Source of the DNA: Nitrospira sp. CR1.2
GTDB lineage: Bacteria > Nitrospirota > Nitrospiria > Nitrospirales > Nitrospiraceae
Reading direction: 5' to 3'
NCBI GenBank assembly: GCA_014055495.1
Contig: WIAG01000029.1
Span: 1 to 44,933, forward strand
DNA length: 44,933 bases
Shown: positions 5,915-20,456 of the stretch, in pieces
Numbering within the stretch: position 1 is the first letter of the stretch
How the letters are laid out: each line of letters begins with the position of its first letter
Position numbers and translations under genes: made by a program
Notes under the pieces: model-generated
Databases searched by the model: none
Told to the model about the DNA's origin: nothing
What the model saw: the letters and a program-made list of their open reading frames with translations, nothing else

Positions 5915-8900
5915 TCAGGTTCTGGCCTTGACTGCCGGGCCAGGTTTGCCCAACCGTTCATCCAGTCCCAAGTGAGGCCGCGCCAGGAATGAACCCGCCA
6001 GCTTTCGGCCGTCATCATAGGCAGGTTGTGCGGCTTGCCATTCCGCGAGAGGCGGATTCACCGGGAGGTTGACCATAAACTTCGTTCCATGCCCCAGTTC
6101 GCTCAGCACCTCCACGTACCCACCATGCTCTTGCACAATTTGGTGGGCAATGGTCAGGCCGAGACCGGTCCCCTCACGCTCGCCGCTCTCATGCTTAGTC
6201 GTATAAAAGGGATCAAAGATGTGATCAAGATCCTGAGGCTCGATCCCAGGCCCGCTATCTTCGACCTCGATCTGCACCCAGGGCTCGTTCGCCGGCTTGA
6301 CCAACCGTCTGGTCCGCACCGACAGTCGCCCCCCCTGCTCGCCGCCGATCGCTTCCATGGCGTTGATGAACAGGTTCAGCAACACCTGCTTGATTTGCTG
6401 CCGGTCAAGCTTCACGTACGGCAGGTCAGCCTCAAGCTCCTTCTGAATGGTAATAGCCTTGCTGCTGGCCTTCACCTCGATAAAGTACAGGCAGGAGGAC
6501 ACCACATCATTGAGATTCTCCTGCGTCAGCTTAGGCGTCATGTAACGGGCATAGTCCAGAATTTCATGCACCAACCGTTCGATCCGCTCCACGTCTTCAC
6601 AGACCACCTGGCTGAACTGCTCCATGAACTCCACATCATCCCGTCGATCCGGCGCCAATTGCACAAACGTCTTGATCGAGGTTAACGGGTTTCGAATTTC
6701 ATGGGCGAAACCTCCGGCCATGGTCTCCAACGACCGCAGTCGGTCGGTGCGGCGCATCAGCAATTGCGAACGGCGGAGGTCCTCATACAACAATGCGTTA
6801 TCGATCGCGATGGCCGCATGTTGTGCCAGCGTTTTGAGCAGCGCCAGCTCTTCGGTGGAATACATCCCGTGATTTGCTCGGCGGCCCAAATTGCAGAATC
6901 CGACGAGCCGTTCCTTGCTGACCAATGGAATACACACCTCCGACTCCAGTCCCTTCAATGTATCCAGCAGCCCCAGATGGTCGGTATCGGCCTTATCATA
7001 TTCGATCTCTTCACGGACCATCGCCGTCTCCGTCCTGAGCAACACTCGCGGAAACTCACTCTCCATCTTGATGGGAGGCACTGCGACATCGCGTGACACG
7101 AAACCATAAGACGCGGTCAGACTGTACACCCCTTGCTCCTTATCCAGCACATACACCGATGCCGTCTTGATATTCATGACGCGGGCGAGTGTTTGTACCA
7201 GTTCTTTCGTGAGCGACTTCAGCTCCAGGATCGCGACCAAAGATCTGGAAAATTGCACCAACGTATCGTAGGCGTCATACCGTTCCCGAAAGAGTGTTTG
7301 CCCGATGGCACGCTCCACCCCTTTCTGAAGGTTGGCCAAACCGCTCGAGACGACCACAAACAATCCGAACAGCACGCCGGCCAGTAGATAATGAAACGTG
7401 CCGGTAAAAATTCGAATCACGAGCAAAATCATCATGTAGGCGGGAATCAACCCCATCAGTTTGATCGACAGCATGACCTTGGGACGGCTCGGGACGAACG
7501 AGATGTCCATGAGGTCGTATCGAGCAATCGCGTACGCCACCACCGTCACCGACAATCCCGCCAGGAGATAGCCGACCGGATAGAACCCCACACCGTAATT
7601 CTGGAGAAAGTCGAGCGAGGCCAGGAATCCCAGCGCGATGGCGACGAAGGTATATTTGAGCTGTGCGCCGAGGAGTGGGGTGGACGCGAGATGGAACCGG
7701 TACCCCTGATAGAGCCGGTAGGCGGTGAACCCGCCCCCCGTGACCACATAGGCCACCAGCCAGGGGTGGAGGAGGCCGGCCTTTGGATAGCGCCCCCAAT
7801 AATAGACATATTGACCGTCGACCAAATAGGGCGTGAAGAGCAGGCCCCAGAACAGCCCTCCGGCCAGGTAGTTCGGCAGGATCAGTCGATCCTGCACCGC
7901 CCCCCAAGCGAGCCGCTGCGCGAAGTGATAGGTCAACGCGGGCAAAAACACCACCCCCGTATAAATCACCCGCACCCACAGCAGGGCCTCATCCTCGCGC
8001 GACGCGGAGAACAACATAAAGCAACCAAACAACCAGAGGCAGGCCGCGCCGCAGACGGCACTGAAGACCGTATTGGAAGAGGAACGAGGATTGTTGCTCA
8101 GGACCCAGAAGGCGCAAATTAAAAACAGGGTCCCGGCCAGCAGCGGCGGAGTAGAATGCCCTGTCGCGCGATTGCTGAGGATGGCTCCGATGGATGTCGC
8201 CACCACGATGATCGCCAGGACGATGGCATACCCCAGGCCTTTGTTCAGCACCACACTGATGTTCATCAGGCGATACCGGACAATCGTATAGGCCATCAAC
8301 GCGGTGTACACCGTGATCAACACCGTGCCGTAGGGCAAGAGCGGAATCCCATACCACAGGGGGAAATTCGTCGCTCCGCCCGCGTATCCAATCACACTGG
8401 CCACCAGCATGTACGCATACTGATGCCGACGGATACCGTTCGCATCCCGCAAGGCCACACCCACGAGCGAGGTGGCGTACACGACGTACCAGAGGAAATA
8501 CAACAAAAACGGGTGAAAAAACGGTCCGGGTACCGGCCAGAACGCGAACGACATCGCGGGGCGCACCCCCGCAACGAACCAGGGAGTCGTATCCGCCAGC
8601 AGGAAGAATCCGGCCAACGCGTACCCGAGCTTCAACGCTCGATCATGACGTGCCGTGATATCGAGAAACGTCACCGTGTGGTGAAAATACAGGACGGGGA
8701 TGAGTGACGCGCCAGCCATGACCAGGCGCAACAGACTGACCGCGAGGTCTTTCGATTCGGTGAGCTGCCAGCCGCAGTAGAAAATGCTCCAGAAGGCGAT
8801 GCTCAGACAGTACAGCCCGTAGATGCGGTTGCGGGCCGCGGCAGGATCCCGGAAATAGACAAATAATCCGAGGCCTGTCGCAGCCAGCGCATTCACCAGC

Positions 8901-8923
8901 GCGCTGAATGCGAGCACTTTCAT
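5915..8923 (-). CDS. Membrane histidine kinase with duplicated polytopic sensor, GAF, HisKA and HATPase domains
   Basis: A 1002-residue sensor kinase. Residues 1-490 are almost entirely membrane segments and consist of two similar units. Each ends in the same kind of stretch (YTIVRYRLMNISVV near 215, and AYAIARYDLMDISFV near 465), so the histidine-kinase 7TM sensor appears duplicated. A GAF-like domain follows (about 560-720), then HisKA with the phosphoacceptor His near residue 740 in FAHEIRNPLTS. The ATPase domain has an N box (LFINAMEA), G1 (DSGPGIE) and G2 (GTGLGLTIAHQ). There is no receiver domain and no response regulator beside it. It starts 33 bases after the upstream PilZ-fusion gene stops, so the two are probably co-transcribed. 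The architecture recalls PrsK-type kinases. Confidence 0.9.
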   Translation of the reverse strand: MKVLAFSALVNALAATGLGLFVYFRDPAAARNRIYGLYCLSIAFWSIFYCGWQLTESKDLAVSLLRLVMAGASLIPVLYFHHTVTFLDITARHDRALKLGYALAGFFLLADTTPWFVAGVRPAMSFAFWPVPGPFFHPFLLYFLWYVVYATSLVGVALRDANGIRRHQYAYMLVASVIGYAGGATNFPLWYGIPLLPYGTVLITVYTALMAYTIVRYRLMNISVVLNKGLGYAIVLAIIVVATSIGAILSNRATGHSTPPLLAGTLFLICAFWVLSNNPRSSSNTVFSAVCGAACLWLFGCFMLFSASREDEALLWVRVIYTGVVFLPALTYHFAQRLAWGAVQDRLILPNYLAGGLFWGLLFTPYLVDGQYVYYWGRYPKAGLLHPWLVAYVVTGGGFTAYRLYQGYRFHLASTPLLGAQLKYTFVAIALGFLASLDFLQNYGVGFYPVGYLLAGLSVTVVAYAIARYDLMDISFVPSRPKVMLSIKLMGLIPAYMMILLVIRIFTGTFHYLLAGVLFGLFVVVSSGLANLQKGVERAIGQTLFRERYDAYDTLVQFSRSLVAILELKSLTKELVQTLARVMNIKTASVYVLDKEQGVYSLTASYGFVSRDVAVPPIKMESEFPRVLLRTETAMVREEIEYDKADTDHLGLLDTLKGLESEVCIPLVSKERLVGFCNLGRRANHGMYSTEELALLKTLAQHAAIAIDNALLYEDLRRSQLLMRRTDRLRSLETMAGGFAHEIRNPLTSIKTFVQLAPDRRDDVEFMEQFSQVVCEDVERIERLVHEILDYARYMTPKLTQENLNDVVSSCLYFIEVKASSKAITIQKELEADLPYVKLDRQQIKQVLLNLFINAMEAIGGEQGGRLSVRTRRLVKPANEPWVQIEVEDSGPGIEPQDLDHIFDPFYTTKHESGEREGTGLGLTIAHQIVQEHGGYVEVLSELGHGTKFMVNLPVNPPLAEWQAAQPAYDDGRKLAGSFLARPHLGLDERLGKPGPAVKART

Positions 8924-8956: not shown

Positions 8957-11686
8957 TCATGCAGCAATCGTGACATTAGCCAGGCCTTTATCGGCCACGG
9001 CAATCAGCGCTTGATTCCCGAATGTGGAATATACCCGCGGGCGTGAGACACCCGCCGCGCGCAAGAGTCCTTCGAATTCAGCCTGGTAGTGGAACTGGAA
9101 TGTGCCTTCGCCTTCGCGCTCCTTGATTCTACCAGAATTATCAAGGAGTCGACGGCCTTCCTCGATTTGATCGGGCGTCTGTGCCGTATCCACAAAATTG
9201 CGATAGATGGCCGAGAGGTCGGCGTAGGGTTTGAGGTTGGAGATCACCAGCCGCCCGTGAGGAGCCAGCACGCGCAGATACTCTCGAAGCGTCGACAAGG
9301 GATCACGCACGTACCCTAACACGAGGTTGCAAACGACACGGTCGAAGGACTGGTCGGGAAACGGCAGCGGGCTTTCTAAGTCCGCCTGGCACAGGCGCAT
9401 CGACATAGGCACATACGCTCGCAGCCCTTCGTAGAATTGTCCCTGCAGCGTCGCGCCGACTTGCTCGAAGTTGACCGTCGCCTGTGCCAACGCCGCCGGT
9501 ACGAAATCGAGTCCCACGTATTCAGGTGAAAGAAAATTTCCACGACGCGCATATCGCTGCCGGAACGCCTCATTCAGCTGGAGGAACACACCGAAGTTAC
9601 CGTTCCCGCAGCCCGCATCCAGAATCCGCTCGCCCTGGTGACAATCGCCCATCAACCGATAAAGGTGGTCCATCAGCCGCCAAAAATCCGCGACGTTCGG
9701 AATGGTCTGAAAATGTTGTAGATAGTCCTGCCAGAAGGCCACATGGTCGGATTTTCTCATCGGCCGACGCGTCTTGCTCCGCTCACGTTCCGCGCGATTC
9801 TGCGCCCCGATCTCGCGATGCGAGGGCTCCACGATCCGTTCCTGACGCCGCTCCGGCCACAACTCCTGCTGACAGCACAAGGCGATTTGGCGATAGACCG
9901 TCCGTGCCTTTCGCGGACTTTCCTGGAGGCGATGCAAGGCACCGGGGACTTCAAACGAATGGCGCAGGTTCGGACCCATCGCCTCGGACACGGACGCGAT
10001 GGAGGCCGGATCGACCCAGGCATCCTGCTCGGCATGGAACAACACGACCGGAGTCCGCAGACGCTCGGCATCGCGCTGTGTCGTGGCAACATCCGCATAC
10101 CCAGCCTGCACTGCATGCTCAAGCCAACGATCGGCATCGATCGTCAGCCCAAGGATATTCACCACGCCCTTGCACACACCGGCCAGATGCTCGCCGATGA
10201 GATCCTCCTGGTGGACCGCCTGCAATGTATGGCGGACATCCATAATGCCGTTGATCAACATCAGTAAGCGCACGTGAGAGACACGTCCCGTCACCTTGAG
10301 CGCCACGCGTCCAGCGAGGCTGGTGGCCACCAGACCGATGGGGCGACCCGGCCATCGCCCGGCCACATGATCGAGCACGGTTTCCAAATCGGTTTCCATG
10401 TCGTCAAGACGGAATTGCGTGACCAGTCCGTCGCTCTCTCCGACATGATTAACATTGTCGTATCGCACGACCTCGAAGCCGTTGCTCGCAAGGTAATAGG
10501 CCAGCGGCACATAGTCGCGCTTGCTTTCTCCATACCCCGGAGCCAAGACCACAATGGGCGCATCGTCGGCCGACGCCGTGCGCGAACGGTCATGGCACAG
10601 CACGATTCGCTCTCCTGAAACCCGGGCACATTCCGAAAACTCACTGATGACGGAAGGGCCTTCCGGTCGAGTCTCCACACCCCCGACCGGGACCTGGGCC
10701 AGTAGTTGTTCGATGACATCTTCGGCCTCCTTCGCCACCGGAAAAAACCGCACTCCCGCCAGCACAGTCCGTCCTGCCACCGGAACGCATCCAGGGCGCA
10801 CATCGGCCGAACCAGGCTTCGTCCAGACCACCTCACCGACCACGGAGCAGCGCTCGGTCGGCACGATATCCTTCGACAAGTCCCGAGGCCTGCCGGTGGG
10901 TGTCCAGCGGAGTTCAAGCTTGGAACCCAGCACATCCTCTTCGACCGAGAGGCGAACACAGGCTCCATTCGAGGTGAGATCCGTCGTCAATGCATCGGCA
11001 CACAGCCGCATACCCGTATGATTTTTGAGACTGACCTCCGTGTTCAAGCCGACGACCACCCGTGGCTGGCTCCGCCGTTCCCGACGAGCGCGTTCTGCCC
11101 CCCGCACAAGTGCCAAGCAAGCGGGAGCGGTCGGTGCGGGAGACGTCCCGGCCTCGATCAGGGCCTCCTCCTGCTCTTGGGCAACCAATGCCGCCGTTAC
11201 ACGAAGATCCGTCATTCCGGCATGCCCTTCACTCAGTAGCGCCGCCAGCACTCGCTCATCTGCGGCGCTCAGATGGACAAACTGGATGGCCAGCGTCATC
11301 ATGGACTGCCGCGTGCCCACCCCAAGCACATCCTCAGACGCACGGATGCCGCAGACCATACCCACACTTTCGAGCGCGGCGGCTTCACGTCCCAGACTGA
11401 GCATCATCTGCTGATTCAGCATCGCAGGAATCTCTGCGAGAAACTCCATCGAGAGGCCGCCGAGGCTGAGGCTCCTGGTCATCCCCCTCCACGTCTGTCC
11501 TTGAAATCGAAGCTGGGTGGGTAGGCGAAGCGTCAGGCGACGGGAGGCACGCCGCTCCGCGACGGAGAGCGACCAAGCCTCGCCTGTTTTTTTCTTCTCA
11601 GCGACTGGAACGATTCGGCTATCCTCTGACCCGTGAGGGTCGATCACAACTTTTTCGAGATTGCACGTCGCCACCTGGTTCGACAT
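8957..11686 (-). CDS. PilZ-PilZ / LuxD-like acyltransferase-thioesterase / SAM methyltransferase fusion
   Basis: A 909-residue soluble fusion. Residues ~45-155 are PilZ-like (RRASRR, then RSLSLGG). A second PilZ-like unit spans ~200-330 (RRSQPR, then TDLTSNG). Both keep the RxxxR part of the c-di-GMP motif, but the second part is altered: Ser replaces Asp/Asn in the first and Thr replaces Ser in the second. Residues ~355-605 resemble LuxD myristoyl-ACP thioesterases/acyltransferases (NHVGESDG, nucleophile Ser456 in VATSLAGR, acid in AEQDAWVDP, His585). Residues ~645-909 form a class I SAM methyltransferase (ILDAGCGNGNFG). The start at 11686 follows GGGAGGAACT; a longer frame lacks a ribosome binding site. 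The kinase gene follows 33 bases on. I infer a cyclic-dinucleotide-responsive lipid- or acyl-modifying enzyme; substrate unknown. Confidence 0.85.
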   Translation of the reverse strand: MSNQVATCNLEKVVIDPHGSEDSRIVPVAEKKKTGEAWSLSVAERRASRRLTLRLPTQLRFQGQTWRGMTRSLSLGGLSMEFLAEIPAMLNQQMMLSLGREAAALESVGMVCGIRASEDVLGVGTRQSMMTLAIQFVHLSAADERVLAALLSEGHAGMTDLRVTAALVAQEQEEALIEAGTSPAPTAPACLALVRGAERARRERRSQPRVVVGLNTEVSLKNHTGMRLCADALTTDLTSNGACVRLSVEEDVLGSKLELRWTPTGRPRDLSKDIVPTERCSVVGEVVWTKPGSADVRPGCVPVAGRTVLAGVRFFPVAKEAEDVIEQLLAQVPVGGVETRPEGPSVISEFSECARVSGERIVLCHDRSRTASADDAPIVVLAPGYGESKRDYVPLAYYLASNGFEVVRYDNVNHVGESDGLVTQFRLDDMETDLETVLDHVAGRWPGRPIGLVATSLAGRVALKVTGRVSHVRLLMLINGIMDVRHTLQAVHQEDLIGEHLAGVCKGVVNILGLTIDADRWLEHAVQAGYADVATTQRDAERLRTPVVLFHAEQDAWVDPASIASVSEAMGPNLRHSFEVPGALHRLQESPRKARTVYRQIALCCQQELWPERRQERIVEPSHREIGAQNRAERERSKTRRPMRKSDHVAFWQDYLQHFQTIPNVADFWRLMDHLYRLMGDCHQGERILDAGCGNGNFGVFLQLNEAFRQRYARRGNFLSPEYVGLDFVPAALAQATVNFEQVGATLQGQFYEGLRAYVPMSMRLCQADLESPLPFPDQSFDRVVCNLVLGYVRDPLSTLREYLRVLAPHGRLVISNLKPYADLSAIYRNFVDTAQTPDQIEEGRRLLDNSGRIKEREGEGTFQFHYQAEFEGLLRAAGVSRPRVYSTFGNQALIAVADKGLANVTIAA

Positions 11687-11719
11687 AGTTCCTCCCCCGA
11701 AAGATTGAGCGCCGGTCCA

Positions 11720-11738
11720 TTCATCGCCTGGCGATGAA
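11720..11738. promoter_or_regulatory. Palindrome upstream of the PilZ-fusion gene
   Basis: TTCATCGCC-T-GGCGATGAA is a perfect 9-bp palindrome 34 bases upstream of the start codon and downstream of the predicted promoter. It could be a repressor site or a 5' UTR hairpin. The 11687-12260 gap also holds the promoter listed next; I see nothing else clear in it. Confidence 0.4.
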
Positions 11739-11924
11739 CACAGAGTGCTCATCGTCGCCCGCTTACACATTGCGTTCCGGGCGAGGCTGGACTCTTGCAA
11801 GCGCACGAACGATTCCAGGGGGACAGGGAGAGGTCGAACGATCGAAACAGGGACGGGTCAGCGGCACACACAGCCTCAGTGTAGGCACACAGCGACCACT
11901 CAACGTGGCGTAGATTCGAAGGTT

Positions 11925-11952
11925 ATTCTAGGGAATTAGACATATTTGTCAA
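11925..11952 (-). promoter_or_regulatory. Sigma70-type promoter for the PilZ-fusion/kinase operon
   Basis: On the minus strand a perfect TTGACA (11952-11947) is followed after 16 bases by TAGAAT (11930-11925). Initiation near 11918 would give a 5' UTR of about 230 bases that contains the palindrome at 11720-11738. Confidence 0.6.
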
Positions 11953-12260
11953 CTTATCCGGCGGAAAAGGTCTTGCCCCCTACTACTATCAACCTAGTTG
12001 TTCCCTACAGGGCCGACCGTCCGTACCCTTCTGGGATGTTCCTTCGTCCGCATCGTTTCAGCCAGTCAGCCCACTGACGTGTGTCACGATCCTGACACAC
12101 ATGTCGGCACATCGGTCGTCTCATTCCCCCTCTAGTTCCCGCTCATTTCATTGCGACAGAGATGTGAGCCCGGACGCCTGCAGCGTGAGTACCTACCGGT
12201 TGCTTTGACCGCAGAGCTATGCTACCCACTGGGCCTGACCTCCACCCTGTGTACATCATC

Positions 12261-13646: not shown

Positions 13647-15167
13647 TCATCCAGCATCGTGTCGGTCCGGCAATGCTGATTGCCCAGCAAGATGGCTGCG
13701 CACATCCTGCACATAGGTCCTGAACGGGTCGGCCATAAAGAAGGGCGAGGCCCCCCGCAGCTTAAAATTCGACCAATTGATAATGTAGTCGTACGAGGTG
13801 TGGTCGTCATATTCCTGCGGGGTCTCCTGTTCCGGCTCGGCCCCGCCTCCGGATAAGAGGTGACGGACCAACTCCCCGCGGCCGAACGCGCGGGTGTTTC
13901 GAGGCGGATGGTCCTGCGCGAGTTGGACAACCTTCTCCGTCGTCAACCGTGGCGCGCGCCCCTCCTCTTCAAGCCCGTAACAGAGACCCCGCTCCGGATG
14001 TAGATTGTGGTATTCGAGATCAAGGCTCTTCAACATGGGATCATCCCAGGCGACCTGCTCCGCATCCCGATAGGTGTCCAACAACCACAACTTCGAGGCC
14101 CAATCGATCCGACCCACCAGCGTCTCGTATCCATGTCGCAAATCGGCCAGGACCGATTCCCACTGAGCGAGCACCCAATCGGTTTCTTCATCCTGCCCCC
14201 GGCAATGGCGCTGCGCCGCGGCAAGAAATTGCTCCTGCACATCGATGGCAGAAATAGACTGCCCCGACTCCAGTCGCACAATCCATTGGCGCTCCGGATC
14301 ACGTGAAATGTCCTGCAACGCCTCGACCGGCTCACTGATCCCAAGTCCGCGAGGCGCCTGCCCGGCTTCGATCAGTTGCAACACCAACCCCGTAGTCCCC
14401 ATTTTCAACGCCGTGGCGTACTCGGCCATGTTCGAATCGCCGCACAGCAGATGAATACGTCGATACTGATTGGGGTCGGCCAACGGCTCATCCCGCGTGT
14501 TCACAATCGCCCGATTGTGCTGCACCCATTCGAAGAAATCGTTCACGATGTAGTCGGCCCGTTGGGAAATCTGGAACGGCACGATCGACCGGTCTTGGGC
14601 ATCCCGCAGCCCCGGCCGATGCAAAATGAGCCCGCCGATTTGCACCCACTCATTGGGATCACTGGCGCAACCGATTCGCCCGGCGCCGGTGAAAATCTGC
14701 CTGGTGACTAAGAAGGTGACCAAAGGCCCAAGCCCGCGCCTGGAGAAGGGAAACTGACGGCTCACCAGATAGTTTTCATGCGAGCCAAACGTCGCGTCGG
14801 TTTCGTGGTCGATATTATTCTTGATCAGAGACACCGTGGCGTCCAAACCCAACGCGGTGATGGCTTGTTGAATGATCCGGTCGCCGGCTCGGTCCGAGGC
14901 CACCAGATCCGCCAGCGTGGTGCATTCCGGCGACGCATATTCCAGATGCCCCATGTCGATGTAGAGCCGACCGGCATTGATCAAGAACCCGCCGTTACCG
15001 GGCGGTTCATCGTGACCGCGATGATGGAGATCGAGCAGCCCACGCCGATCCACACGAAAGATGTGATCGCGAATACGCTGGGCCACCCATGAGGGAGAGT
15101 ACTCCGGCCGATCCTGGTTCACCAGGAGGCCATACTCCGTTTCGAGTCCGAAGATACGATTCAACAT
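13647..15167 (-). CDS. pafA: Pup--protein ligase
   Basis: PafA phosphorylates the C-terminal Glu of Pup with ATP and joins it to substrate lysines. The 506-residue protein opens with the family motif IFGLETEYG and has the ATP/Mg-binding LIKNNID and GSHENYLVSR. The probable catalytic Asp lies in LYIDMG, and TRDEPLAD and GDSNMAEYATALK follow. The C-terminal PafA-type domain ends in DPFRTYV. Compared with the mycobacterial enzyme as I recall it, about 13 residues are inserted before the catalytic strand (HHRGHDEPPGN) and the usual SHPEY is HLEY. It lacks the long N-terminal loop of Dop, which separates it from the paralogue at 17182-18702. It is the last gene of the proteasome run, 9 bases after prcA. 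Confidence 0.92.
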   Translation of the reverse strand: MLNRIFGLETEYGLLVNQDRPEYSPSWVAQRIRDHIFRVDRRGLLDLHHRGHDEPPGNGGFLINAGRLYIDMGHLEYASPECTTLADLVASDRAGDRIIQQAITALGLDATVSLIKNNIDHETDATFGSHENYLVSRQFPFSRRGLGPLVTFLVTRQIFTGAGRIGCASDPNEWVQIGGLILHRPGLRDAQDRSIVPFQISQRADYIVNDFFEWVQHNRAIVNTRDEPLADPNQYRRIHLLCGDSNMAEYATALKMGTTGLVLQLIEAGQAPRGLGISEPVEALQDISRDPERQWIVRLESGQSISAIDVQEQFLAAAQRHCRGQDEETDWVLAQWESVLADLRHGYETLVGRIDWASKLWLLDTYRDAEQVAWDDPMLKSLDLEYHNLHPERGLCYGLEEEGRAPRLTTEKVVQLAQDHPPRNTRAFGRGELVRHLLSGGGAEPEQETPQEYDDHTSYDYIINWSNFKLRGASPFFMADPFRTYVQDVRSHLAGQSALPDRHDAG

Positions 15168-15176
15168 AATAACCGA

Positions 15177-16016
15177 TCAGGCAGGGCTCGCCGTACTGAT
15201 GCCGGACGGCAACAAGCCCCCCAATTCGTCGGAGCCGAGCGCGCGGTATTTCGACGAACCGGGCCCATTGCGCTCCAAGAGAATGCATTCCAAGGATTTC
15301 TCGGTCACAGTCTGCCGCACATGGGCCAGCAAGGAGTCCTTACCCGGTAGAGTCGAGGCATCCCCGGCTGTCGTATCCGCGGGCGCGAGGCCGGGAGTCT
15401 CCTCCCCTTCCGCAGCACTCGAGGCCGCTTGCGCCAGGGAACCGACGGCCCAAGCGCAGAGAGCCGTCTCAACCGCCTGCTTCAACGGGGCCTGCTCGAA
15501 GCCGGGTTGGGAGTCCAAGTACCGCCCCATCTGCGCCTGAACAGTGGCGGTCGCACCCAGCGACGCCCAACGCCGACTCTCTTCAAACGTGCCGTCGTAA
15601 TTGATGGTCAGGAACAGGTCCCGCTCCGGCCTGGTGCCTAACTCAGCGAGAAGAATCTTCACGATAAACGGCGCCTTGTAGATTTCTTCGAAGGCCTGCT
15701 TGATGGCGGGGGCCAGCCCATACTTCATCAATCGAGCGCCGGTCACATCAGACGGGGACCGGTTGAATCCCTCGATGTGCGCCATCTCCAGCAGGGAGAA
15801 CCGCAGCTTCTCCAGATCAGCCGGATGCCCCATGCCGCCAAGGGCAATGCGATCATAGATTTCATACAGCTTGGGTGTGCCACGGCTCGCCGTCAGCATC
15901 AGAATACCGTCGGCATAGGCGGACGCCACGACCGGCGCGCCTTTCGTAAACTGCTCATCGAGATAGTGCCGTCGGTTGCCGACCGCCTCGATCCACCGAT
16001 AGGGTTCTTCGTACAT
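15177..16016 (-). CDS. prcA: 20S proteasome alpha subunit
   Basis: The alpha subunit forms the outer, gating rings of the 20S core. The 279-residue protein has the actinobacterial-type alpha fold (ASAYADGILMLTASRGTPKLYEIYDRIAL, in register with the AGDRR segment of beta subunits) but no N-terminal catalytic Thr. The last ~75 residues, after SLAQAASSAAEGEETPG, are low-complexity and may be a flexible tail, as in other bacterial PrcA proteins. It ends in STASPA with no obvious ATPase-docking feature of its own. prcB ends 59 bases upstream. Confidence 0.9.
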   Translation of the reverse strand: MYEEPYRWIEAVGNRRHYLDEQFTKGAPVVASAYADGILMLTASRGTPKLYEIYDRIALGGMGHPADLEKLRFSLLEMAHIEGFNRSPSDVTGARLMKYGLAPAIKQAFEEIYKAPFIVKILLAELGTRPERDLFLTINYDGTFEESRRWASLGATATVQAQMGRYLDSQPGFEQAPLKQAVETALCAWAVGSLAQAASSAAEGEETPGLAPADTTAGDASTLPGKDSLLAHVRQTVTEKSLECILLERNGPGSSKYRALGSDELGGLLPSGISTASPA

Positions 16017-16075
16017 CAGATGTCACCTTTATCCATCATCACGCCTGTGCCGTCGCGCAGGATGAAACTCGCGGC

Positions 16076-16849
16076 TTACCGCGCGCGCAATACGTCCTGT
16101 TCATAGAGTCGTTTCAAATCGCCATCGGCAATGACACGGACACCGGCTTCGGTGATCAATTTGACCACCGGATACAGGTTCAGTTCCCGATTGACCCCGC
16201 CCGTCGCCGAGTCGAACTCCGCTGCGCTTGAGAGCAATCGTAACGCCTGAACCGTGGCCTGTTCTTCCGGCAAGGACGCCAGTGGCTGCGGGCCCCAGGT
16301 GTTCTGGTAGTGCAGGATGCCCCGGATCGTCGGCGAACCGGACCCGGACACCGCATACTCCACCGCTTCGAACTCGGCACCAAGAATGTCATAGAAATAA
16401 ATCTTGGCCGCGCCCTGCTCATGATCATACCCGGCGAAGACGGGCACAACGGCTCCAGTGCCCGCCAACGCGGCAGGCACATTCTCCTTGAGCAACTTGG
16501 ACACGGCGCGAAGCTTGCCCTCAAAACTCAACTCCTGCAGTTGCGTGCGCCGGTAGTATTTGAAGGAATGCGCCAGCACACGCACCATCTCATAGGCCGT
16601 AGCCGGAACCCCTGCGATGGCCATCACACTGTGACGATCGATCTCCAACACCTTATCGGTGCGGTCATACATCACCATGTTGCCCGCAGTCGCCCGGCGA
16701 TCCCCTGCGACCAACACCCCGTCGCGATACTTCAGAGCGAGAATCGTCGTGGCGGTCGGCACCTCAATGCCGGCAGCCGCCGCCACCGGATTCCCGAACT
16801 GATAACCCTGCTCCTTCAAGAGCTGAAAAAAATCTCCCTGCATCCCCAT
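16076..16849 (-). CDS. prcB: 20S proteasome beta subunit
   Basis: The beta subunit carries the N-terminal-threonine protease site. The 257-residue precursor has a 33-residue propeptide, then TTILALKYRDG. With Thr34 as mature residue 1, Asp17 and Arg19 fall in AGDRR and Lys33 falls in RTDKV, exactly the proteasome active-site pattern. SGSGSPTI is the conserved SGS segment and SATGG matches the D-SATGG motif. The residue before the cleavage point is Ala (TA/TT), where mycobacterial PrcB has Gly. The propeptide is shorter than in Mycobacterium. An alternative start two codons downstream is possible. Confidence 0.93.
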   Translation of the reverse strand: MGMQGDFFQLLKEQGYQFGNPVAAAAGIEVPTATTILALKYRDGVLVAGDRRATAGNMVMYDRTDKVLEIDRHSVMAIAGVPATAYEMVRVLAHSFKYYRRTQLQELSFEGKLRAVSKLLKENVPAALAGTGAVVPVFAGYDHEQGAAKIYFYDILGAEFEAVEYAVSGSGSPTIRGILHYQNTWGPQPLASLPEEQATVQALRLLSSAAEFDSATGGVNRELNLYPVVKLITEAGVRVIADGDLKRLYEQDVLRAR

Positions 16850-16984
16850 ATCTTTACCCTTTCCGACTCGATCTCCCCGTTCTTTCGGGCGGACACTGAG
16901 ATCAGGGCTTCATTGCGCGCGTCCGACGAGGGCCTTCCGAGGCCGCGCGTTGCGCGAGCAAAAGTCCTGACTGAGTGGCCAGCC

Positions 16985-17179
16985 TCACTCTCCCGTCCGC
17001 TGCCGATATCGTTCCGCCTGTTTCGGATCCACCTTGCGCATCCGCTTCAAGAGGTTGTCCTTGTCCGGCGAACCGGTGTCAGGGCGTCGCGGCCCCCCGC
17101 CTTCCTCAGACGGGCTCGGGGATTTCGGCATCGGATCACCGGGCGCCTCACGACGATCCGGCATCAACATATATCGCAT
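16985..17179 (-). CDS. pup: Prokaryotic ubiquitin-like protein Pup (UBact type)
   Basis: A 64-residue, highly charged, largely disordered modifier that is joined through its C-terminal Glu to substrate lysines and read by the Mpa coiled coils. Here it ends RQRTGE. This is the Gly-Glu ending that is ready for ligation, not the Gly-Gln of mycobacteria. The ending fits the R-[TS]-G-[EQ] pattern described for UBact in Gram-negative bacteria including Nitrospirae. The central DNLLKRMRKVDPKQAERYRQ segment is the likely Mpa-binding helix. AAAGGA lies 9 bases before the ATG, inside the end of dop; Met4 and Met6 are alternative starts. The gene lies 2 bases after dop. Confidence 0.9.
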   Translation of the reverse strand: MRYMLMPDRREAPGDPMPKSPSPSEEGGGPRRPDTGSPDKDNLLKRMRKVDPKQAERYRQRTGE

Positions 17180-17181
17180 GG

Positions 17182-18702
17182 TTATGATTCCTTTCGTTTC
17201 GTCCAGGCAGCCAGGGCGTCGGCTGGTGACGACGCGGATTCCAACAGCACCGCACAGGCTCGCACGGCATCCGGCTCAAACAGGTCGCCCATCTCCAATG
17301 TGCGCGACCGCAGTCCCCCGCTGAACTGTACCCGCTCCCACTGCATGCCGCTGATCTCTGCCGAAAACCGTCTGACACACAATCCGCGTAACCCTCCGCG
17401 GGTATCCGCAGGCCCGGCCGCCAACGCCTCCGCGATGTCGCGCTCGGTCGTCATACGCCAGGTTTTCCCTTCCGCTTCTAGCCCCAAATACAATCCACGC
17501 TCAGAGTTCACATTATGATATTCCAGATCCAAACTGGCGAGCCATGGATCCTCCCAGGTCAGCCGCTCTTCGCGCATGAACGTCTCCAACAACCACTGTT
17601 TGGTCACCCAATCCAGCTTGCCGACCAATTGGGCGCGATCCTCTTTCAGCAGCCGGAGCGTCTCTTGCCATTCGCGCAAGACCCAGTCCGCATCGGGATC
17701 ACTGCCTCCGCAGACCCGGCTGGCCGCATTCCAATATTCTTCTTGAATGGCCAAACCCGACCACGCCCGCCCATCCTTGAGTCGCATCGTCGTCTTCAGC
17801 TCTGGATCGCGCGACAGTTGTTTGATCGCCACAACCGGCTGCTCCAACTCCACGGTCGGGGCCGCGCCGCACTGCAGCAGGTCGAGCACCAGCCTGGTGG
17901 TGCCGACCTTGAGAGCGGTCGCGTATTCACACATGTTGGCGTCCCCCAGGATCAGATGCAGGCGCCGGTACTTCGTCCGATCGGCGTGAGGTTCGTCACG
18001 CGTGTTGAGGATGGGGCGATTGTGCATCGTGTCCACCCCCAGTTCCGCTTCCATGAAGTCAGCCCGTTGCGAGAGCTGGAAGGCACCAGGCACATGTCCG
18101 GACTCCTGCGCTTCCATCCCGACCTTCCCGGCCCCAGCCAAGAGCTGACGGCTGACCAGAAATGGTAACAGCCCACTGACGAGTCGAGGAAAGGGCAACG
18201 AGCGTGACACGAGGTAATTGTCGTGGCAGCCATAACTGTGGCCATGAAAATCGGTGTTGTTTTTATAGAGCTGCACATGCGCGCCGCCGAGCTGTTGATT
18301 GCGGCGGTCCGCCGCCCGCTGCACAATACGCTCACCGGCCCGATCATGGGCCAGCAGATCCTTGAGCGTGCGACATTCCGGGGTGGAATACTCAGGATGG
18401 GTATGGTCGTTATAGAACCGGGCGCCGTTCGGCAGCACCAGGTCGCTTTTCATGTCGTGAAACGAGTAGGGACGGTGGGCATCCAGCTTGGCGAAGTCGT
18501 CCTCTTCCTTGTCCTGCTGCAGACCGGAGACCCGGAACCCTCGGGCATCTTCATGCGGATCCTCGCCCCGGTAGTCCCATCGCCGTTCAAAGTTTTCGGA
18601 CAGATGCGCACGCACCAATTCCATCGACTCCTCGACCGGATCCACCGCGTCGAGGTCTTCTCTGGTGATGCCGTACTCCGTTTCAATACCGAAGAGATGC
18701 AT
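17182..18702 (-). CDS. dop: Pup depupylase (Dop)
   Basis: Dop removes Pup from substrates and, where Pup ends in Gln, deamidates it. This 506-residue paralogue of PafA starts HLFGIETEYG. It has the Dop-specific N-terminal section (RRWDYRGEDPHEDARGF and the charged Dop loop QQDKEEDDF), then NGARFYNDHTHPEYSTPE with the catalytic Asp. LYKNNTD and GCHDNYLVSRS (ATP/Mg) and TRDEPHADRTKYRRLH follow. The start at 18702 is 2 bases after the mpa stop; a longer frame runs back into mpa and is rejected. Because Pup here ends in Glu, only the depupylase activity should be needed. Confidence 0.92.
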   Translation of the reverse strand: MHLFGIETEYGITREDLDAVDPVEESMELVRAHLSENFERRWDYRGEDPHEDARGFRVSGLQQDKEEDDFAKLDAHRPYSFHDMKSDLVLPNGARFYNDHTHPEYSTPECRTLKDLLAHDRAGERIVQRAADRRNQQLGGAHVQLYKNNTDFHGHSYGCHDNYLVSRSLPFPRLVSGLLPFLVSRQLLAGAGKVGMEAQESGHVPGAFQLSQRADFMEAELGVDTMHNRPILNTRDEPHADRTKYRRLHLILGDANMCEYATALKVGTTRLVLDLLQCGAAPTVELEQPVVAIKQLSRDPELKTTMRLKDGRAWSGLAIQEEYWNAASRVCGGSDPDADWVLREWQETLRLLKEDRAQLVGKLDWVTKQWLLETFMREERLTWEDPWLASLDLEYHNVNSERGLYLGLEAEGKTWRMTTERDIAEALAAGPADTRGGLRGLCVRRFSAEISGMQWERVQFSGGLRSRTLEMGDLFEPDAVRACAVLLESASSPADALAAWTKRKES

Positions 18703-18704
18703 AG

Positions 18705-20456
18705 TTAGATAATCTGGTTCACCAACCGCTCTTCCGAGGGCCGGCCGCGCCGGAACGACGACACCCCGACGACCTGCTCCGGATGGTGATCCAGCAATTT
18801 CAGCCATTCTTCTGCCGCATCATCCGGCGGCAGCATCTCCCCTTCACGATATTCCTCCTGCACCGCGTCGAGCAGATCCTGCGTTCGGATACCGTCACCG
18901 GAGGGAGCGCCGGTCTCCGCGACCGCTCGCTCAATCGCCTTCTCCTTCGCCCGCTGCACGATCGACGAAAGAATCGCTCCGCTGACGAGATCGCCCCGAT
19001 ACAGGACTTTGTTCTGCCCATTCCTAAGCCGAATCGATAACACGCGATTCTGGTCGATACGAGAGAAGATCTGGTCCACCACCTGTTCGATGACCGCACG
19101 GCGAGCTGCCGCATGATCCTGGTTGTGTCGATCCAGCAGCTCATGATCCAGCGGCAGCGTCGCTGTCAGATAGACCGACAAAATCTCCACGGCCGCGTCG
19201 CGGGTCGGACGCGCCACCTTGATCTTCCGATCGATGCGGCCCGGCCGCAGGATCGCCGGATCGATCAAGTCCGGACGGTTCGACGCCAAAATGATCACCA
19301 CATCCTGCAGCGATTCAATCCCATCCATTTCGGCGCAAAACATCGGCACCAGGGTGTTATTGATATTGAACGATCGCATCGACCGTCTGGTGCCAAGCAC
19401 CGACTCCGCCTCGTCGATAAAAATGAACGGCAGGGCCCCTTCCTTGCGTCTCGCGCGCGCCTTGGCAAAGAGGTCGCGCACAATCCGCTCCGATTCGCCC
19501 AACCACATGTTCAAAATTTCCGGGCCCTTGATATGCAAGAACGCGCCGCTGGTCACCGGAGGATTCTTGGCCTTGCCCTCAGAAGCGGACTGCCCCTGCG
19601 ACTCCCGCACCAACTGCGACAGACTGGCAGCCGCCGCCTGCCCGATCAGCGTCTTGCCGCATCCCGGGGGCCCGTACAGAAGAAAACCCTTCGGCTGCGC
19701 AAACTGGTACTTCGAAAACGTGTCGGCATGCAGCAACGGATATTCGATCGCTTTGCGAATAGCCTCGATCGCCTGATGCTGGCCGCCGATCTGTTCCCAG
19801 GTCACGCTCGGCACTTCATCCAGCAGATGCGCGCGGGCCTGCCGGTTCTCGAATTTTTCGATGGCAATGCGGTGCGTCGGCTCAACCCGCACCTCATCGC
19901 CCGGCTTAAGGTCCGCCCCCAGCAAATCACTGGAGCGCTGCAGAATCAGCACCTGCCGCCCCATCTCCTGCTCGAAACGAATCCGACCGTCCGGCAGGAC
20001 CTCGGCGACTTTCAACACCGGCCCGTTCCGGTCATACCCGAGCGCCTTGATCACCGTATAGGCCTCGTTGACAAGGATCTGCGTGCCGATCTTAAGGTCC
20101 TCCACCGAGAGCCGGGGATCGGTATTGGCGTAATACTCCGCGCCGCCGACTACGATCCGGGCCACCCCCTCTCCCGGCAACTCCACGAGAAGGCCCACGC
20201 GATTGGCAGGCGCCGTCAGTTTGGCAACGGCCTCGTTCAGCTTCTTTAACTCACCATCACGACGGTCGTGAGTCACCGATTGCGCCATCACCACATGCCG
20301 CAATTTGTAGAGCATCTTCTGGCGGGGATCACCGTCGGGAAACGCGGTCAAACATTCGTCTATCAGTTCGATCGGATCGGCCGGCACCGCGGCATCACGG
20401 GACGGCGATTGAGGCCCCCCGGCGGCAGGCTGATCCGGATTGCGATGGTCACTCAT
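18705..20456 (-). CDS. mpa: Proteasome-activating AAA ATPase (Mpa/ARC)
   Basis: This hexameric ring ATPase recognises pupylated proteins and feeds them into the 20S core. The 583-residue protein has an N-terminal coiled coil (about 50-80), two OB-like domains (about 85-215) and one AAA domain. The AAA domain shows Walker A GPPGCGKT near residue 260, Walker B FIFIDEAES near 345, and ASNRPDLIDPAILRPGRIDR. The C-terminus reads SEERLVNQII. It lacks the GQYL-type tail by which mycobacterial Mpa docks into the proteasome, and also lacks an HbYX motif. Core docking may therefore differ here. The gene is followed within 2 bases by dop. Confidence 0.92.
   Translation of the reverse strand: MSDHRNPDQPAAGGPQSPSRDAAVPADPIELIDECLTAFPDGDPRQKMLYKLRHVVMAQSVTHDRRDGELKKLNEAVAKLTAPANRVGLLVELPGEGVARIVVGGAEYYANTDPRLSVEDLKIGTQILVNEAYTVIKALGYDRNGPVLKVAEVLPDGRIRFEQEMGRQVLILQRSSDLLGADLKPGDEVRVEPTHRIAIEKFENRQARAHLLDEVPSVTWEQIGGQHQAIEAIRKAIEYPLLHADTFSKYQFAQPKGFLLYGPPGCGKTLIGQAAAASLSQLVRESQGQSASEGKAKNPPVTSGAFLHIKGPEILNMWLGESERIVRDLFAKARARRKEGALPFIFIDEAESVLGTRRSMRSFNINNTLVPMFCAEMDGIESLQDVVIILASNRPDLIDPAILRPGRIDRKIKVARPTRDAAVEILSVYLTATLPLDHELLDRHNQDHAAARRAVIEQVVDQIFSRIDQNRVLSIRLRNGQNKVLYRGDLVSGAILSSIVQRAKEKAIERAVAETGAPSGDGIRTQDLLDAVQEEYREGEMLPPDDAAEEWLKLLDHHPEQVVGVSSFRRGRPSEERLVNQII

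Follow-up and report, generated by a model that had tools for sequence, protein, structure and literature searches.

On the minus strand of the window, the 44,933-nt stretch of DNA analyzed here, lies a gene (8957..11686) whose 909-residue product combines four domains in one chain. Pfam finds in it two PilZ domains, an Acyl_transf_2/LuxD domain (PF02273), and a methyltransferase domain (Methyltransf_31/11), and a frame check found it open from the ATG at 11686 to the stop at 8957. The single-chain PilZ-PilZ-LuxD-like-methyltransferase fusion described in the first-pass annotation is thus borne out. Assembly error, a danger raised there, did not materialize: copies 65 to 89% identical recur across numerous separate genomes, some of them complete chromosomes, so that the fusion is neither chance nor an artifact of assembly. 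By a close-relative scan, the host organism is a Nitrospira. The fusion gene is surrounded by a sensor kinase gene, a YheT-like hydrolase gene, and a Pup-proteasome cluster. This bacterial proteasome cluster, at 13647-20456, has two Pup-ligase/Dop paralogues, a beta subunit, an Mpa/ARC-type ATPase, and a divergent alpha-like subunit that scores below the Pfam cut-off.

Upstream of the fusion gene, on the same strand, is a near-consensus sigma-70-type promoter (11925..11952; TTGACA at 11952-11947, a 16-nt spacer, and TAGAAT at 11930-11925), which does not vary across an alignment of 12 close orthologues. Two GTCA-n6-TGAC inverted repeats (12064..12103), conserved upstream of the promoter, are possibly a transcription-factor operator. 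The 5' leader of ~240 nt (11687..11924) contains a predicted helix and an almost invariant 41-nt element (11777-11817). The helix has slight support from covariation (three pairs) and would cover the Shine-Dalgarno sequence; the leader may be a regulatory RNA. A known riboswitch was rejected as a candidate, since an Rfam search of the leader gave no match at gathering scores; a genome-wide regulon was likewise set aside for the 41-nt element, which has exact matches only at the fusion locus. An N-terminal extension of the protein to an upstream GTG at 11806 was also considered, but that frame breaks in some orthologues. We therefore assign the GTG to the leader, with no conserved N-terminal extension, and regard the conserved upstream stretch as a DNA or RNA element.

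The middle domain (9761..10660; residues 343-642) is an alpha/beta-hydrolase domain. Profile, PDB sequence, and fold all place it nearest, among known families, to LuxD, the myristoyl-ACP thioesterase/acyltransferase. Residues 377-601 match PF02273 at 78.4 bits (E 7.6e-22; gathering score 20.3 bits), ahead of the generic Hydrolase_4 profile (E 7.5e-19), so that placement in a generic hydrolase family far from LuxD did not occur; a homologue from the same order, P0004, reaches 115.3 bits. The PDB sequence search returned the LuxD structure 1THT at E 3e-14, with the next hydrolase at 4e-4. Fold comparison, which used an AlphaFold model with a mean pLDDT of 75 for the whole protein and values in this domain mostly above 80, also placed 1THT on top (Z 31.5, against 28.4 for the next best; 283 of 293 residues aligned), with a shared near-full-length fold and catalytic Ser-Asp-His at 18% identity. 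The motifs named at first pass are present, HVGESDG at 414 and ATSLAGR (Ser456), as are the acid, in EQDAW (Asp555), and the His, in LHRL (His585). With a full triad and the top match in all three comparisons, the LuxD-like identity proposed there stands. However, the domain is not LuxD itself, because it scores 79.8 bits against the NCBIfam NF052253 equivalog cut-off of 420 and there is no luxCDABE operon. Unlike LuxD, it is joined to PilZ and methyltransferase domains and has no luxCE or luciferase context. A search of plasmids with the fusion matched only single-domain methyltransferases and one lux-cassette LuxD.

The remaining catalytic domain (8987..9754; approximately residues 645-900) is a class I SAM methyltransferase, with the Pfam match at residues 683-823 and a SAM motif, LDAGCGNG, that is conserved in homologues. 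Its substrate is not readable from the fold, because many small-molecule class I enzymes nearly tie at Z 18 to 21; in the comparison with fatty-acid O-methyltransferases, the NCBIfam Mtf2 score of the fusion is only 17.4 bits, against a cut-off of 400. Escherichia coli YnbC is, like the window protein, an alpha/beta hydrolase fused to a methyltransferase, but its domains (Methyltransf_20 and Hydrolase_4) differ and it gave no significant BLASTP alignment to P0001. With no specific similarity by BLASTP or Pfam, YnbC was rejected as the parent of the fusion.

Both PilZ matches, at 35.6 and 28.5 bits, exceed the PF07238 cut-off of 22.5 bits. The first-pass annotation held that both were altered in the D/NxSxxG half of the motif. 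This is correct for the first domain (11234..11557; residues 44-151), which keeps RRASRR and reads S-L-S-L-G-G in the second motif, with Ser in place of Asp/Asn, but not for the second (10694..11080), recovered in a profile search of the genome. There, RRSQPR and DLTSNG are close to canonical, because orthologues have DLSSNG or DLSTNG and the window carries a single Ser-to-Thr change. Among other homologues, one from the distant family (below) has a single, fully canonical PilZ domain (KRFSTR and DVSDRG), the same-order homologues P0004 and P0005 have lost or degenerate motifs, and in Nitrospira G141 the second domain is missing its core. Binding of c-di-GMP by the fusion is, on these motifs, plausible here and perhaps ancestral, not universal. 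Nor would c-di-GMP control be general, because the PilZ motifs are degenerate in P0004 and P0005 and because some of the enzymes that take the place of the fusion in related loci carry no PilZ domain. Profile searches of the window's genome gave 29 PilZ and 58 HATPase matches; PilZ domains within long proteins occur only in the fusion and a paralogue, both directly upstream of a kinase gene.

The kinase gene (5915..8923, minus strand) begins 33 bp downstream of the fusion gene and encodes a 1,002-residue sensor histidine kinase with two HisKA_7TM regions, a GAF domain, HisKA, and HATPase, with all catalytic boxes intact. All 11 sampled genomes of the genus Nitrospira have the fusion, each time followed immediately by the kinase, and the pair recurs in a second family of the order (two genomes) and in a distant family (three genomes). 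Across the three families, the genes flanking this short form differ, and each of the 16 genomes has the kinase gene immediately downstream, so that the partnership suggested at first pass proves to be strictly conserved. The close-relative scan with the fusion found only Nitrospira, and the wider survey of genomes covered Nitrospirota. Adjacent to the window pair there is no response regulator, exporter, or quorum regulator. For the HisKA_7TM region, a literature search that took in few subscription journals returned few papers: a census of two-component systems in archaea, a review, and a Leptospira study on another subject.

The window's own genome (C127) also carries a long paralogue (L046:7943-12232). 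Proteins of this form, which occur in the wider family and have ~1,400 residues, comprise a receiver, a PAS domain, a kinase-like remnant, two PilZ domains (both canonical in this copy), a dead LuxD domain, and a methyltransferase, and their genes are followed by those for a GAF kinase, an NtrC-type regulator, and a receiver-HD protein. The second PilZ motif is canonical in 14/14. Ser456, Asp555, and His585 are kept in 18/18 active-form homologues (from Nitrospira, the second family of the order, and the distant family), whereas the alignment shows the triad lost in all 14 long paralogues, with Ser always replaced by Asp and His gone; the alignment can therefore tell live from dead enzymes. 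The long paralogue may be a pseudoenzyme receptor.

Among known systems, the window kinase is close to PrsK of the PrsK/PrsR system (PEP-CTERM/exosortase), which shares its HisKA_7TM and GAF domains. Identity with PrsK was rejected: the TIGR02916 score is 144 bits against a cut-off of 300, and the kinase falls in a separate clade. In a quick kinase tree, computed without bootstrap and with several near-copies among its rows, the window kinase belongs to a 21-row clade (SH-aLRT 99) in which 19 kinases have an enzyme gene directly upstream and 2 have no adjacent enzyme. The PrsK clade of the same tree has such an enzyme in 0/13 rows; PrsK-type loci have sigma-54 regulators or EpsI instead. Four enzyme-paired kinases (L063, L118, L119, and L139) lie outside the 21-row clade, on long branches, and two kinases within it, L047 (paired with a fusion) and L076, have degenerate catalytic boxes.

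Six kinds of enzyme occupy this upstream slot in the clade: LuxD-methyltransferase, KASIII, acyl-ACP reductase, aldehyde dehydrogenase, HMG-CoA reductase, and methyltransferase. Many carry PilZ domains. Directly before HisKA_7TM kinases we found FabH-like PilZ-KASIII fusions (L052:7932-9497 and L063:9618-11159), acyl-ACP-reductase-like genes (PigE/TIGR04058) with degenerate PilZ domains (L072:5929-7695 and L073:5837-7621), and HMG-CoA reductase genes (L082:8670-10043 and L151:1002-2369). Other slot genes encode PilZ-acyl-ACP reductase, acyl-ACP reductase, aldehyde dehydrogenase, PilZ-methyltransferase, or methyltransferase. G143 lacks the LuxD domain and has, where the fusion would stand, a receiver-PAS-PilZ-methyltransferase gene, a PilZ-KASIII gene, and a kinase of the same layout; in G131, from another family, a PilZ-KASIII protein 47 to 49% identical is encoded directly before a HisKA_7TM kinase. 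Most of the slot enzymes are ones that work on acyl thioesters or transfer methyl groups. HMG-CoA reductase is an unexpected partner, with no obvious role in an acyl signal. Since the putative receptor class in Nitrospirota stays the same while the slot enzyme varies, it would be the pairing that defines the class, with exchangeable chemistry. The acyl-type signal hinted at in the first-pass annotation is favored by these loci, because related kinases adjoin other enzymes of acyl-thioester chemistry. Searches of the literature, again with few subscription journals covered, found no paper with both "PilZ domain" and "3-oxoacyl-ACP synthase" and none that joins "PilZ," "acyl-ACP reductase," and "histidine kinase." It is probable that these loci form a family of exchangeable acyl-enzyme/HisKA_7TM-kinase cassettes, of which we found no description in the literature searched.

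We propose that the fusion and the kinase constitute a synthase/receptor pair. The LuxD-like domain would accept an acyl chain carried by acyl-ACP or acyl-CoA, hold it on Ser456 as an acyl intermediate, and release or transfer it; the fused methyltransferase would then cap the acyl product with a methyl group from SAM, e.g., as an ester. In the membrane, this product would be detected by the HisKA_7TM region, which we take as the likely receptor, of the kinase from the same operon; it might act between cells. c-di-GMP would tune the fusion through the second PilZ domain and perhaps the first. We put the probability of this reading, in which the fusion makes an acyl-derived and probably methylated ligand, the kinase senses it, and the second PilZ domain brings in tuning by c-di-GMP, at about 0.5. 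For the cassettes in general, the simplest common explanation would be that each supplies its own kinase with an acyl-derived ligand, and the adjoining of kinase relatives to other acyl-making enzymes suggests an undescribed family of fatty-acid-derived signaling systems.

The fusion could instead be a regulatory scaffold, a c-di-GMP- and ligand-binding regulator that contacts the kinase and for which catalysis is dispensable, as the dead long paralogue with its receiver domain may be. The long paralogues do keep the LuxD domain despite loss of the triad in 14/14, and they do so with a canonical second PilZ motif and beside a kinase, an NtrC-type regulator, and a receiver-HD protein. The window form, however, retains both the triad and the SAM motif in each homologue from the three families, which speaks for selection on catalysis; a scaffold is improbable. 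Very improbable indeed is that the fusion and the kinase are co-transcribed yet functionally unrelated, given that they are adjacent in 16/16 short-form genomes from three families with different flanking genes and that the slot still holds an enzyme when the type of enzyme switches.

More serious, though we still consider it unlikely, is sensing of the intracellular lipid state, in which the slot enzyme is metabolic, serving acyl-ACP or lipid turnover and methylation, and the kinase monitors the state of the membrane or of acyl groups within the same cell, with no dedicated signal molecule. This would accommodate general enzymes such as aldehyde dehydrogenase and HMG-CoA reductase in the slot, the membrane-embedded HisKA_7TM region, and a locus with no adjacent exporter or quorum regulator. 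PilZ domains and mutual exchange before one receptor clade, however, are not expected of housekeeping enzymes. The synthase/receptor reading can also be widened, and here we are doubtful: an undescribed Nitrospirota superfamily of acyl-derived signaling cassettes might combine a HisKA_7TM-GAF receptor kinase with an exchangeable, often PilZ-gated synthase, c-di-GMP gating the synthesis of a cell-cell signal, and the Nitrospira duplicate, a dead enzyme fused to a receiver domain, would serve as a receptor for both that signal and c-di-GMP.

In soils, waters, and sewage works, where they live mostly as flocs and biofilms, Nitrospira are drivers of nitrite oxidation. If the synthase/receptor reading is true, the conserved pair would be a self-contained means of making and receiving an acyl signal, perhaps with c-di-GMP as its gate, and would offer a direct way to ask how these bacteria decide on floc formation; synthase/receptor-kinase signaling would also extend to a new phylum with new chemistry. 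Because enzymes are exchanged before one kinase clade, the match of receptor and ligand is directly testable; the prediction for each cassette is that the ligand is the product of its own enzyme.

The Nitrospirota cassettes resemble known synthase/receptor-kinase quorum pairs, with enzymes that differ, are exchangeable, and are often fused to PilZ. In CqsA/CqsS and LqsA/LqsS, synthase and kinase are encoded in one locus and the ligands are acyl-CoA-derived hydroxyketones (PMC3376566). These pairs are like the window pair in that a membrane receptor kinase is encoded with the enzyme for an acyl-derived ligand, but CqsA and LqsA are PLP enzymes, and the window kinase has HisKA_7TM and GAF domains. 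In the Phc system, the methyltransferase PhcB and the kinase PhcS share a locus and the signals are 3-hydroxy fatty acid methyl esters (PMC8578825). Ralstonia PhcB/PhcS is like the window pair in that the gene for a SAM methyltransferase lies directly beside that for a sensor kinase, and its acyl methyl ester signal is the model that we propose for the window. The gene order is of the Phc type in that the methyltransferase-bearing gene adjoins the sensor kinase gene, although the window pair is without adjacent response regulators. To our knowledge, PhcB has neither a LuxD nor a PilZ domain. A Paraburkholderia graminis conjugative plasmid (L162:5443-9818) carries a methyltransferase-kinase-regulator-regulator cluster in phcBSRQ-like order that is not annotated as such. 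The methyltransferase in a Paraburkholderia plasmid locus of this order, a possible PhcB, is 28% identical (E 7e-21) to the slot methyltransferase of G130, which is not the window enzyme.
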